From a virus: 22,295 bases of DNA. The DNA lies in IMG/VR virus record IMGVR_UViG_3300034683_000253, positions 1-22,295 of that record; one strand, 5' to 3'. Shown piece by piece: positions 14,299-17,039 of this stretch (its first letter is position 1; each line of letters starts with the position of its first letter). A program made the translations under genes and the position numbers. The notes under the pieces are model-generated. The model did not search any database. It saw nothing but the letters and a program-made list of their open reading frames with translations, and had not been told where the DNA came from.

Positions 14299-14901
14299 TT
14301 ACCCGGCGTACTTGGCCAGGTCTTCGGGGGTGTTGCCGAACATCTCGGCGATCTGGGCCTGCTGCGCGTTCAGGGCCTTCGGGTCGGCGTCCCCGGGCTT
14401 GCCGGGCAGCTCGGGATCCTTGATGACCTGCGGCGCCGTGGCCATGAACTTCTTGAACTCCTCCAGGCCGCCCTCCGCCGCGCACATGGCGCGGTAGTAG
14501 CCCTGGCTGGCCGGGGCGATCTTGCCCCCGGCGATGGCCTGGGTCACGGCGGCCTCGATGTCGGCCTCGCGCCGGGCGGCCTCGATCGTGCGCAGCCGCT
14601 CCTCGGCGTTGGCGGCGCGGGTCAGGGCGTGGTCCAGGTCGGTGCGGGGCACATACTTGTCCAGGCCTCCGGGCTGCTGCTGGTTGGCGGCCTTCGCCAG
14701 GGCCTGGGCTTTGGCCGCGGCCTGGTCGGCGGTGGACCCGGCGGGCAGGTCCAGGGCGGCGGCCACGCCTGCGGGCACTTCGGGGGTGTTCTTGGCCTTG
14801 TCCAGGGCGGCCTGCACGGCCCCCGCCTGCTGGTTGATCTGCTCCTCGGTGGCGTCTTCGGCCACGCCGAGCAGGGCGCACAATGCCTTGGGCAACTTCA
14901 T
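14299..14901 (-). CDS. Z: Head scaffolding protein nested in the protease gene (Mu Z-like internal start)
   Basis: An in-frame ATG (protease Met157) at 14901 is preceded by a strong ribosome site, GGAGG, 5 bases before it. Initiation here would yield a 200-residue protein (MKLPKALCALLGVAEDATEEQ...) that lacks the protease domain. It is rich in Ala, Gln and charged residues with long helices ('LTRAANAEERLRTIEAARREADIEAAVTQAIA'), typical of scaffolds. In Mu the scaffold Z is made from the 3' part of the protease gene I, and lambda does the same with C/Nu3. Sequence and precedent agree; expression is inferred. Confidence 0.75.
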   Translation of the reverse strand: MKLPKALCALLGVAEDATEEQINQQAGAVQAALDKAKNTPEVPAGVAAALDLPAGSTADQAAAKAQALAKAANQQQPGGLDKYVPRTDLDHALTRAANAEERLRTIEAARREADIEAAVTQAIAGGKIAPASQGYYRAMCAAEGGLEEFKKFMATAPQVIKDPELPGKPGDADPKALNAQQAQIAEMFGNTPEDLAKYAG

Positions 14902-15369
14902 CTCGTCCTCCGGTTCGGCGGCCTGGGCGTTCAGCGCCTTGAGCCGCAGGTTGGGGTGATTCGTGAGCCCCGCCGACACCAGCTCGGCAACATGGCTCGG
15001 GACTGATTGGGTGTGGTAGAACACGGGCGACAGGTAGCGGTATTCCCGCGTGGCGATCTGATTCGCCGCCCGGGGGGTCCATTCGACCCGGCCCCACACG
15101 GCGCCGCCCCGAATCTCCAGCCCGGTGATCCAACCCGCAGCAGGGGCCTCCAGGCCTTTCGGCGCGCGGTGTTCGGTCGCGTGTTCCCAGTCGATCTGTA
15201 CGGGCAGCCCGCGCCGGTTGTACGCGGCGACGACCCGGGCGGCGTCGTCCGGGCCGAACGCCCAGGCCCGCCCGTCGATGCCGCGCACCTCAGGGCCAGC
15301 GGGGATCAGCTCGACCCACTCCGGAGCCTGCCCTGCGGGCATCTCGGTGTTGAAAGCGATACGTCTCAT
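14299..15369 (-). CDS. I: Prohead protease with scaffold domain (Mu I)
   Basis: The 356-residue protein begins 'MRRIAFNTEMPAGQAPEWVELIPAGPEVRGIDGRAWAF' and contains 'GLPVQIDWEHATEHRAPKGLEAPAAGWITGLEIRGGAVWGRVEWTPRAANQIATREYRYLSPVFYH', the Mu-like prohead protease signature. His63 in DWEHA and Ser114 in YLSPVF are the best candidate catalytic residues. 'SAGLTNHPNL' at 132-141 closes the protease domain. Residues 157-356 form the helical scaffold part, which also has its own start. The start follows GAGGGG in the leader, at the downstream end of a 380-base gap. The protease matures the prohead before packaging. Confidence 0.95.
   Translation of the reverse strand: MRRIAFNTEMPAGQAPEWVELIPAGPEVRGIDGRAWAFGPDDAARVVAAYNRRGLPVQIDWEHATEHRAPKGLEAPAAGWITGLEIRGGAVWGRVEWTPRAANQIATREYRYLSPVFYHTQSVPSHVAELVSAGLTNHPNLRLKALNAQAAEPEDEMKLPKALCALLGVAEDATEEQINQQAGAVQAALDKAKNTPEVPAGVAAALDLPAGSTADQAAAKAQALAKAANQQQPGGLDKYVPRTDLDHALTRAANAEERLRTIEAARREADIEAAVTQAIAGGKIAPASQGYYRAMCAAEGGLEEFKKFMATAPQVIKDPELPGKPGDADPKALNAQQAQIAEMFGNTPEDLAKYAG
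14907..14911 (-). promoter_or_regulatory. Internal ribosome binding site for the nested scaffold
   Basis: The minus strand reads GGAGGACGAGATG here, a full-length Shine-Dalgarno core spaced 5 bases from an in-frame ATG. A site of this quality inside a coding region is unusual and decides the scaffold start at 14901. Confidence 0.7.
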
Positions 15370-15405: not shown

Positions 15406-15420
15406 TTAACGGGGGTTAAC
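15406..15420. promoter_or_regulatory. TTAAC direct repeat spaced by 10 bases upstream of the protease
   Basis: The plus strand reads TTAACGGGGGTTAAC. Two TTAAC copies start 10 bases apart, one helical turn, so a protein could contact both on one face. This AT-rich element lies about 37-51 bases ahead of the protease start in otherwise GC-rich DNA. Its role is only inferred. Confidence 0.35.
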
Positions 15421-15504
15421 AGTTGCGGCGGGCGCCGCGTGGTACGAGGCAGGGTTCAGGGGCAGGGAGGGGCGTCCGCTGCGTCAAGGATGCCCGTTCA
15501 AAAA

Positions 15505-15516
15505 CGTTTATAAACG
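15505..15516. promoter_or_regulatory. 12-bp palindrome CGTTTATAAACG, possible activator or operator site
   Basis: The 12 bases form a perfect palindrome and sit inside an unusually AT-rich patch (AAAAACGTTTATAAACG). The centre TTTATAAA could serve as a -10 on either strand, but no good -35 is spaced 16-18 bases from it. This fits either a dimer-binding site or an activator-dependent late promoter of Mu P_I type. It lies 136 bases upstream of the protease start. Confidence 0.4.
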
Positions 15517-15605
15517 CCCTGTGCCGCCCGTTCGGGCCGGGGCGCGCACCTCGGGCCGCCGCGCTGGGCTGCGACCTCCCAGGGGCGTTTTTCCGCACCC
15601 CGGGG

Positions 15606-15634
15606 TTTACACGCTCATCCAGCGGCGCTATAGG
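15606..15634 (+). promoter_or_regulatory. Plus-strand sigma70-like promoter, antisense to the late operon
   Basis: TTTACA (15606-15611, five of six with TTGACA) and TATAGG (15629-15634, four of six with TATAAT) are separated by exactly 17 bases. It is the only good consensus pair I found in the gap. A transcript would begin near 15640-15642, which is the 5' edge of the foldable element listed next, and would run antisense into the MuF gene. Confidence 0.45.
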
Positions 15635-15640
15635 AGTGGC

Positions 15641-15751
15641 AGAGGCGGACGTGACACGGTGATACACTCCCGGCCGTAGCACGTCAGTCCTGACGGAGCG
15701 CCATGTGGGGTTGCCGGGCGTCGCCCGGAGGGAGGCCCCACCGTCCGCCTC
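15641..15751 (+). ncRNA. Candidate structured RNA closed by a perfect 10-bp stem
   Basis: GAGGCGGACG (15642-15651) pairs perfectly with CGTCCGCCTC (15742-15751), enclosing about 90 bases. Inside, CGTCA (15682-15686) pairs with TGACG (15691-15695) around GTCC. GTGGGG (15705-15710) pairs with CCCCAC (15736-15741), directly stacked on the closing stem. CCGGGC (15714-15719) pairs with GCCCGG (15723-15728) around GTC. The predicted transcript start of the upstream promoter coincides with the closing stem. The element overlaps the last bases of MuF (stop at 15750). It could instead fold in the late mRNA on the minus strand. No T-run terminator follows, and no known RNA family is recognised. Confidence 0.4.
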
Positions 15752-17039
15752 ACTTCCGCCCCTTCTTCAGCAACCGCCGAATCTCCAAGTTCCGCTTCAC
15801 TTCAGAGGTCGAAAGCCGCCTGAAACTCGTCAGGAACACGGCCCTTCCGCTGCCCGTGCCCTTCACCACCGTGACGTAGCCCTCGGATTCCAGGACGTAG
15901 ATCAGGCTCGCAGCGCCGTCCTGGATACGCTCCCCGTGCTCCAGAGCGTCCTGGATGCTGGCGTACTCGGCAGGCGACAGCTCCGGGTGCTCCCGGCCCT
16001 GCTTGGCATGCGTGTCCGGCGAAAAGCGCACGGTGCTGGTGCTGGCCCCGACCAGGTCCGCGTCCCCGACGCGCAGGATGCCCACGGGAAAATCACCGCG
16101 CGGTGCCCGGAACCACTCCGAGAACGACGGGCCGCCCACCATCTGGCGGACGATCCCCGCCGCGTCCTCGCGGTGGGCAGCGTCCAGTTTTGCGGCGACC
16201 AGTTCCAGGCTGTGGGCCAGTCGCCCGGCCGCCCCCGGGTTGTAATCCCAGCCCGGGTCGATGCCCTCGGGCACCTGGTGCGTCTCGCCGGTGCGGATGT
16301 TTTTCCAGGGCCGGGTGCGCACGGGCGGCGCCTGGCGCTGCACGCGCACGCGGGCCGGAGCCCGGTGCCCCGTGGGCAGTCCCGTCCCGGCGTCAACAAG
16401 CGGCTCGGGCTCCGGCGCCTGCACCCCCGTGCGCCCCAGGCGCTCCGCCTCGGCGCGCGACACCTGGCGCACCCGGCATTTGCAGCCCCAGCCGTTGGGC
16501 GTGTAGTGCGTGTCCCACCACGGGTCGTCCACGGGCAGCAGCGTCCCGTGCCAGCCCATGTGCTCGGGGCGGTGGACACGGCTGGGCCCCAGCTCGTAGA
16601 GCAAAAACGGGTGCGACGCCTTGGTGCGCTGGATGCGCGCCCACTGCCCGGCGGCGCGCGCCGTGCGCATGTTGGTGCGATAGATGGTCGCCAGGCGCCG
16701 GGGGCTGCCCAGTTGCACCTCGCGCACCTCGCCGGTGACCGGGTCCACCGCCTCCTTGCGGCCCCACCAGCCCAGCGCCTGCAGGCGCGGGGTGAGCGTC
16801 TTGGCGAAGTCCCGCAGGGTGCGCCCCTCGGCCTGGGCCCGGGCCGCCTCGGCGCGGATCGCGGTCAGCACGTCCAGCTCCATGGCCTTGGCCACGGTGA
16901 ACGACGTGGCGTGCTCCTCGCGCCACACGTCCGTGTGGTCGAATCCGGGCTTGAGCCCCTTGGCCCGGAACCACTCCATGGCCTCCCTGGGCGGCGGCCC
17001 CGGGAAGCTGAAGCCGGGCTTGGGCGTATGGCTAGGCAC
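15750..17039 (-). CDS. F: MuF head morphogenesis protein (gp30, SPP1 gp7-like) with nuclease-like C-terminal region
   Basis: The start is a GTG at 17039 overlapping the previous stop by 8 bases; the product has 429 residues. Residues 110-200 hold the MuF core: 'GSPRRLATIYRTNMRTARAAGQWARIQ', 'HPFLLYELGPSRVHRPEHMGWHGTLLPVDDPWWDTHYTPNGWGCKCRVRQVSRAEAERL'. Residues about 310-410 resemble the small RNase-like domains often fused to MuF proteins: 'TVRFSPDTHAKQGREHPELSPAEYASIQDALEHGE', then 'YVTVVKGTGSGRAVFLTSFRRLS'. H344, K346, H351, K393 and the TSFRR segment are candidate active-site residues. MuF is carried in small numbers in the virion and is needed for head assembly. The nuclease-like part is an inference from pattern. 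Confidence 0.92.
   Translation of the reverse strand: MPSHTPKPGFSFPGPPPREAMEWFRAKGLKPGFDHTDVWREEHATSFTVAKAMELDVLTAIRAEAARAQAEGRTLRDFAKTLTPRLQALGWWGRKEAVDPVTGEVREVQLGSPRRLATIYRTNMRTARAAGQWARIQRTKASHPFLLYELGPSRVHRPEHMGWHGTLLPVDDPWWDTHYTPNGWGCKCRVRQVSRAEAERLGRTGVQAPEPEPLVDAGTGLPTGHRAPARVRVQRQAPPVRTRPWKNIRTGETHQVPEGIDPGWDYNPGAAGRLAHSLELVAAKLDAAHREDAAGIVRQMVGGPSFSEWFRAPRGDFPVGILRVGDADLVGASTSTVRFSPDTHAKQGREHPELSPAEYASIQDALEHGERIQDGAASLIYVLESEGYVTVVKGTGSGRAVFLTSFRRLSTSEVKRNLEIRRLLKKGRK

Follow-up and report, generated by a model that had tools for sequence, protein, structure and literature searches.

The window analysed here is a 22,295-nt stretch of viral DNA (IMG/VR record IMGVR_UViG_3300034683_000253, positions 1-22,295; all coordinates are window positions), and the element in question is a candidate immunity RNA encoded in the gap between two late genes, those of MuF and a Mu-like protease I. 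The MuF protein of this temperate phage carries an N-terminal MuF domain followed by a C-terminal domain (CTD), and it is a head protein encoded next to the portal gene within a Mu-like head operon. On sequence evidence, a small structured RNA is encoded at 15642-15751 (+) under a sigma70-type promoter of its own; the gene is antisense to the late operon and converges on the MuF 3' end. The locus comprises the following features.

15606-15611 (+): -35 hexamer TTTACA of the RNA promoter, read directly; its position is kept in relatives, many of which have TTGACN
15629-15634 (+): -10 hexamer TATAGG after a 17-nt spacer, read directly; the promoter pair TTTACA-17-TATAGG matches at 9/12 positions
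15642-15751 (+): structured RNA of class A, about 110 nt; covariance model R1 matches 15643-15750 at 96.4 bits
15642-15651 (+): 5' arm of closing stem P1, pairing with 15742-15751; compensatory changes in 8/9 pairs
15742-15751 (+): 3' arm of closing stem P1, overlapping the MuF stop codon on the opposite strand
15656-15677 (+): P5 hairpin ACGG/CCGT (15656-15659 with 15674-15677), invariant
15667-15671 (+): pseudoknot strand CTCCC, pairing with GGGAG at 15730-15734; 100% of cells paired, double changes in 3/5 pairs
15730-15734 (+): pseudoknot partner GGGAG, from the comparative alignment
15679-15699 (+): P4 hairpin, double changes in 5/6 pairs
15705-15741 (+): P2 stem GTGGGG/CCCCAC (15705-15710 with 15736-15741), enclosing an optional P3 hairpin at 15714-15728
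15753-16169 (-): CTD of MuF, 139 amino acids, with a predicted colicin D/RelE-like RNase fold (PBECR3/Ct_MAD-like)
15750-17039 (-): MuF gene, N-terminal Phage_Mu_F head domain (E 7.5e-17; PHROG 220) plus CTD
15631-16222 (no strand): exchanged cassette of CTD and RNA, the sole differing part of the region relative to phage L012, which is otherwise about 97% identical
14299-15369 (-): Mu-like protease I gene (domain match) on the other side of the gap, the next late gene after MuF

The two hexamers with their spacer and the perfect 10-bp closing stem had been described in an earlier reading made from the letters alone (the sequence-only reading), and both are present as described there. The three internal stems of that reading are retained in recast form as the invariant P5, P4, and P2, to which the optional P3 hairpin is added, while the pseudoknot had been missed. 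No separate small immunity open reading frame lies between MuF and the protease gene; the frames found there (e.g., 15416-15682 on the minus strand) overlap the RNA and have no Pfam match. At 15495-15516, also within this gap, overlapping palindromes are present (CGTTCAAAAACGTTTATAAACG), and similar tandem CGTTCANAAACGTT motifs occur at loci L333, L064, L067, and L068; these are perhaps a late-promoter or regulator site.

Structure and Coding Strand of the RNA

Folded as a single sequence, the element is barely better than shuffled sequences on either strand, with -55.5 kcal/mol on the plus strand (z -1.8; 8/200 shuffles equally good) and -57.8 kcal/mol on the minus strand (z -2.3; 3/200 shuffles equally good). 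The Rfam 15 covariance models gave no match in the window at gathering thresholds or at E up to 10, in keeping with the earlier remark that no known family was recognised. The case therefore rests on relatives. A search for MuF yielded 80 viral loci, and a short pattern taken from the fixed part of the RNA found at least 120 stretches in IMG/VR contigs, from which 118 elements were aligned, and at least 118 stretches in bacterial genomes. Among the matches listed, at least 225 places, viral and bacterial, score above 36 bits with covariance model R1, and the counts of partner genes given below refer to 124 viral and 101 bacterial copies among these matches. Among the hosts are Alpha-, Beta-, Gamma-, and Deltaproteobacteria, Nitrospinota, and SAR324, with single contigs from other phyla; Gluconobacter morbifer, Komagataeibacter xylinus, and Hyphomicrobium zavarzinii carry copies. 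At the DNA level, the window element has no near or distant match in the phage collection; matches in plasmid DNA were dismissed as weak and mostly due to chance in IS66.

Conservation across the 110 nt exceeds that of the flanks in the closest relatives, and in the alignment the stems vary while the loops are fixed. The sequence-only reading had counted a lack of covariation across relatives against its proposal; covariation was looked for and found. For this purpose, helices P1, P5, P4, and P2 and the pseudoknot were written out for 53 diverse copies, and this structure pairs in 97.4% of cells. Double-sided changes occur in 315 cells, compared with a mean of 78 in shuffled alignments (0/500 as high) and 33-73 in slid registers, and they affect 19 pairs. 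The pseudoknot is paired in every sequence of this alignment, with CTCCC/GGGAG in the window being replaced in relatives by CTGCC/GGCAG, CTCGC/GCGAG, CCCCC/GGGGG, and others. In the variable helices, 108 G-U pairs are possible on the plus strand only, versus 32 on the minus strand only (one invariant T-G pair left out).

Of 224 copies, 54% have a sigma70-like hexamer pair, matching at 8/12 positions or more, that ends 3-11 nt ahead of the RNA start; the corresponding figures are 4.8% for shuffles and 4.5-5.8% for windows displaced by 12-28 nt. Since the pair recurs just before the RNA start in relatives, the match between promoter start and stem edge, to which the sequence-only reading had drawn attention, is conserved across copies. 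A generic promoter scan of the window reported no promoter because it requires the -10 hexamer to end in T, and that of the window is TATAGG. Intrinsic-terminator-like sites follow 32/222 copies, versus 2/222 in shuffled sequences and 11/215 in an upstream control. The covariation, G-U bias, promoter, and terminator-like sites together argue for a small plus-strand RNA gene convergent with MuF, as had been suspected. The same reading had also allowed that the fold might act within the late mRNA, on the minus strand between MuF and the protease, and the slightly better single-sequence fold on that strand is consistent with this. However, the covariation, the conserved plus-strand promoter at the RNA start, and the 108:32 asymmetry indicate the plus strand, and orphan copies of the RNA occur without any such operon, making a role in the minus-strand mRNA very improbable.

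Association With the MuF C-Terminal Domain

By linkage, the partner of the RNA is the CTD. One family of MuF CTDs directly precedes the RNA for 102 of the 124 viral copies, most of the others lying at contig ends or alone, and the RNA of nearly all phage copies runs convergently over the end of MuF. In a set of 78 phages, RNA distance correlates with CTD distance (r 0.50) and with MuF N-domain distance (r 0.31); the partial correlation between RNA and CTD is 0.43, a value reached in 0/2000 permutations. Adjacency to the CTD gene is not obligatory, because in L160 and L241 a DNA-methylase-like gene intervenes between MuF and the RNA, placing RNA and CTD about 960-980 nt apart. At L104, L175, L189, and L223, MuF-type proteins of about 600-700 amino acids match the CTD profile twice and are followed by the RNA, which suggests a duplicated CTD.

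The CTD itself is likely an RNase fold of the colicin D/RelE type, as judged from its predicted structure. The AlphaFold prediction has a predicted local distance difference test score (pLDDT) of 97, and its best solved matches (VIA) are colicin D, CdiA-NC101, BrnT, and RelE, with Z of 6.2-4.3. A ToxN-type chain is absent from the VIA matches listed for the CTD model, which does not exclude a ToxN-like fold. CTDs match PBECR3 or MuF_C weakly; for PBECR3, weak matches were obtained in 20 of 58 CTD members (best 4.9e-5) and none for the window's own CTD. Padloc matches of the CTD were scattered and weak and were set aside. Iyer et al. (2017) predict RNase or RNA-binding roles for such domains, note that they are also found solo, and propose delivery of the MuF C-terminal domain into the host (PMC5512222). 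Jamet et al. (2017) list a Proteobacterial MuF extension, Ct_MAD, without assigned function, and describe MuF toxins as normally having an immunity open reading frame downstream (PMC5576092). The Ct_MAD extensions probably include the present CTD.

Joint Exchange and Further RNA Classes

Phage L012 offers a natural comparison. On either side of 15631-16222, its sequence matches that of the window at 97% identity, and within this segment it carries a different CTD together with a different RNA at the same place and on the same strand. Homology between the two RNAs is weak by sequence, as R1 finds the L012 RNA at only 17.8 bits (E 0.49). Relatives with 57 and 53% identical CTDs carry the same second-class RNA, here class B, with its own promoter. 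The class-B pattern finds further copies, and 5 of 6 loci adjoin the corresponding CTD (CTD-B), which is similar to the MuF C-terminal domain proper. A part in packaging or head assembly, like that of phi29 pRNA, would suit the position beside a head protein encoded next to the portal gene, but L012 has a different RNA despite near-identical neighbouring head genes and MuF N-domain, and solo CTD plus RNA pairs occur without head genes; such a role is therefore scarcely credible.

Beside further CTD classes, still other RNAs occupy the MuF gap, again at this place and on this strand. Class C is found at L062-L068 and L345-L349 with another CTD, and its closing stem shows compensatory changes. 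Class D is present at L066, L071, phage POA1180, and L341-L344, and class E at L073 and L080; few sequences are available for these two classes, whose structures are provisional. In L343 and L344, the CTD end and the class-D RNA are identical, while unrelated sequence, each with its own promoter-like pair, begins past the 5' end of the RNA. Because the two diverge exactly at this point, the RNA start is a cassette edge. A joint test for promoter and P1 at single rare-class loci, set against shuffles, reached significance in part only. It gave 0/60 for L020 and L080, 1/60 for L040, 2/60 for L073, 3/60 for L066, and 4/60 for L212; L064, L071, and L077 were not clearly distinct from shuffles, and no such combination was found at L062, L067, or L068.

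In phage Mu (L213, 1953-3272), gene F has neither a gap nor an RNA before gene G. The C-terminal domain of Mu F matches CTD-B weakly, and it is called inactive by Iyer et al. (2017; PMC5512222). The idea that CTDs without a class-A RNA had lost a conserved lysine and need no RNA was withdrawn, because most such CTDs carry other RNA classes, with only L083/B23 and phage Mu showing none. We put at about even chances that these RNAs form a superfamily of structured immunity RNAs, with at least four recognisable classes that share one architecture, each specific for one class of MuF CTD RNase. CTD and RNA would then move between phages as a cassette, and bacterial orphans, some of them at the distal end of arrays of clustered regularly interspaced short palindromic repeats (CRISPR), would defend against an injected effector.

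Copies in Bacterial Genomes

Outside phages, the CTD adjoins the RNA in 47 of the 101 bacterial copies. About half of these 47 are solo CTD genes of roughly 127-184 amino acids that converge on the RNA; Methylobacterium (M. mesophilicum NBRC 15688, locus L283), Hyphomicrobium, and Methylorubrum are among the genera that have them. The remaining bacterial copies are orphans that retain the fold. In 15 whole genomes, chosen because they carry the RNA, 9 have the RNA and no CTD, and all 6 with a CTD have the RNA beside it.

Five orphan class-A RNAs lie within 160 nt of CRISPR arrays, at 5, 58, 96, 126, and 158 nt, and at least three are leader-distal as judged from repeat orientation. No explanation offers itself beyond a general defence setting. 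They are located as follows.

L251: 304-410
L289: 7131-7224
L325: 2996-3092
L228: 1156-1272
L315: 4206-4300

Other orphans adjoin an integrase or a resolvase, and the RNA of the orphan loci is likewise without an Rfam match. About 3 kb from one orphan RNA, on a contig with Mu-like genes, L273 3162-3249 (+) matches the Rfam small RNA sRNA-Xcc1 (RF02221, 81 bits), which elsewhere is an integron-borne small RNA. Tandem RNA pairs without a CTD beside them are found in L294 (764-869 and 889-996) and L321 (601-698 and 760-857), from a Desulfovibrio metagenome-assembled genome and Neokomagataea thailandica, respectively. A recombination site alone (attC- or IMH-like) was rejected as an account of the element, since it leaves the promoter, the orphans, and the G-U bias unexplained.

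These copies also bear on the suggestion, made in the sequence-only reading, that the RNA regulates MuF and protease expression. In its most explicit form, the RNA would repress MuF (and the protease) in the prophage, acting in cis as an antisense RNA or through convergent transcription, in the manner of a type I antitoxin or a transcriptional interference device. The RNA's own promoter suits such a role, as does its convergence with the end of MuF in nearly all phage copies. However, invariant loops and a covarying pseudoknot are unnecessary for antisense pairing, and, with the body of the RNA beyond the coding sequence, only the last codons of muF are overlapped. RNAs also stand alone in genomes without any CTD, and the intervening gene in L160 and L241 separates the two partners. 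We regard cis repression as unlikely. A regulator of expression more generally is less likely than an RNA acting on the CTD, because RNA and CTD are exchanged together, the RNA occurs with solo CTDs or alone, and the two lie far apart in those two loci.

Proposed Function

Taken together, these observations are best accommodated by an antitoxin or immunity RNA neutralising the MuF CTD, in which case RNA would provide the immunity to a polymorphic toxin delivered by the phage; we consider this probable. It fits best because the RNA has its own promoter and a fold with fixed loops, is exchanged with the CTD, is paired with it outside phages, and is retained in bacteria without it. In the prophage, the sigma70-type promoter of the RNA would drive its plus-strand transcription even with the late operon off. 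The transcript would fold into a compact pseudoknotted shape (P1, P5 with the pseudoknot, P4, and P2), bind the RNase-like CTD, and block it in the lysogen and in cells close to lysis. MuF in the phage head may in turn carry the CTD into new hosts, where cells without the RNA would suffer its putative RNase activity, while lysogens, with constitutive RNA, and bacteria with orphan copies would be protected.

The linkage and joint exchange also fit an RNA that serves as cofactor, guide, or cargo of the CTD, bound to MuF, co-packaged, and directing or activating the domain after injection. RNA binding has been suggested for the inactive Mu domain by Iyer et al. (2017; PMC5512222). Nevertheless, stand-alone and orphan RNAs without a CTD or phage genes do not fit a virion cofactor, and a housekeeping-type promoter would act in the lysogen rather than late, so that we find a cofactor role quite improbable.

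Several observations weigh against an immunity RNA directed at an RNase. Foldseek alone found no match below E 0.001 for the CTD model in the PDB, and its VIA Z values are all below 8, which is why the RNase fold is called likely rather than proven. An RNA is not seen with some divergent CTDs (L083, phage B23), and no terminator is evident downstream of the RNA in the window itself. In an even sample of 337 alphaproteobacterial genomes, the class-A RNA stands beside only 5 of 10 CTD hits; the other five comprise one hit at the end of a contig, two apparent remnants, and two divergent CTDs. Finally, the many orphan copies could mean another role altogether.

If neutralisation of the CTD by the RNA holds true, the Proteobacterial MuF CTDs, unassigned in the 2017 survey, gain both a partner and a function, and immunity to polymorphic toxins can be RNA rather than protein. 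The proposal bears on the MuF cargo delivered to the host and on the protection of lysogens and hosts. The RNA also adds a widespread structured RNA absent from Rfam, and natural experiments are at hand in the form of domain swaps with matched RNAs, solo pairs, and orphans. In the freely readable papers on MuF and structured RNA, no description of the RNA was found; an earlier description is possible.

Relation to Known Systems

Orphan immunity genes of polymorphic toxin systems are stand-alone, protective genes without a toxin, often on mobile islands. The orphans described here would differ from these in being RNA genes, some of them at the ends of CRISPR arrays. Type III toxin-antitoxin systems (ToxIN, CptIN, TenpIN) are similar in pairing a protein with an endoribonuclease fold, here predicted, with a pseudoknotted RNA, in having RNA classes that track toxin classes, and in their anti-phage and phage contexts. 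In type III systems, one operon holds RNA repeats followed, after a terminator, by the toxin (PMC5086642). In contrast, the present RNA is usually a single one of about 95-115 nt with its own promoter, convergent with the putative toxin gene rather than in an upstream tandem-repeat operon, and the putative toxin has a predicted BECR fold (colicin D/RelE-like) and is fused to a phage head protein. The PBECR and MuF-C domains are alike in being predicted RNases, with solo forms and weak matches to the present CTDs, although no associated RNA is described in the accessible part of the paper that reports them (PMC5512222). The MuF polymorphic toxins (Jamet et al., 2017, PMC5576092; Apk2, PMC12226406) likewise combine a MuF N-domain with exchangeable CTDs in temperate phages. 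Their known immunities are proteins encoded just downstream, whereas here an RNA occupies that place.
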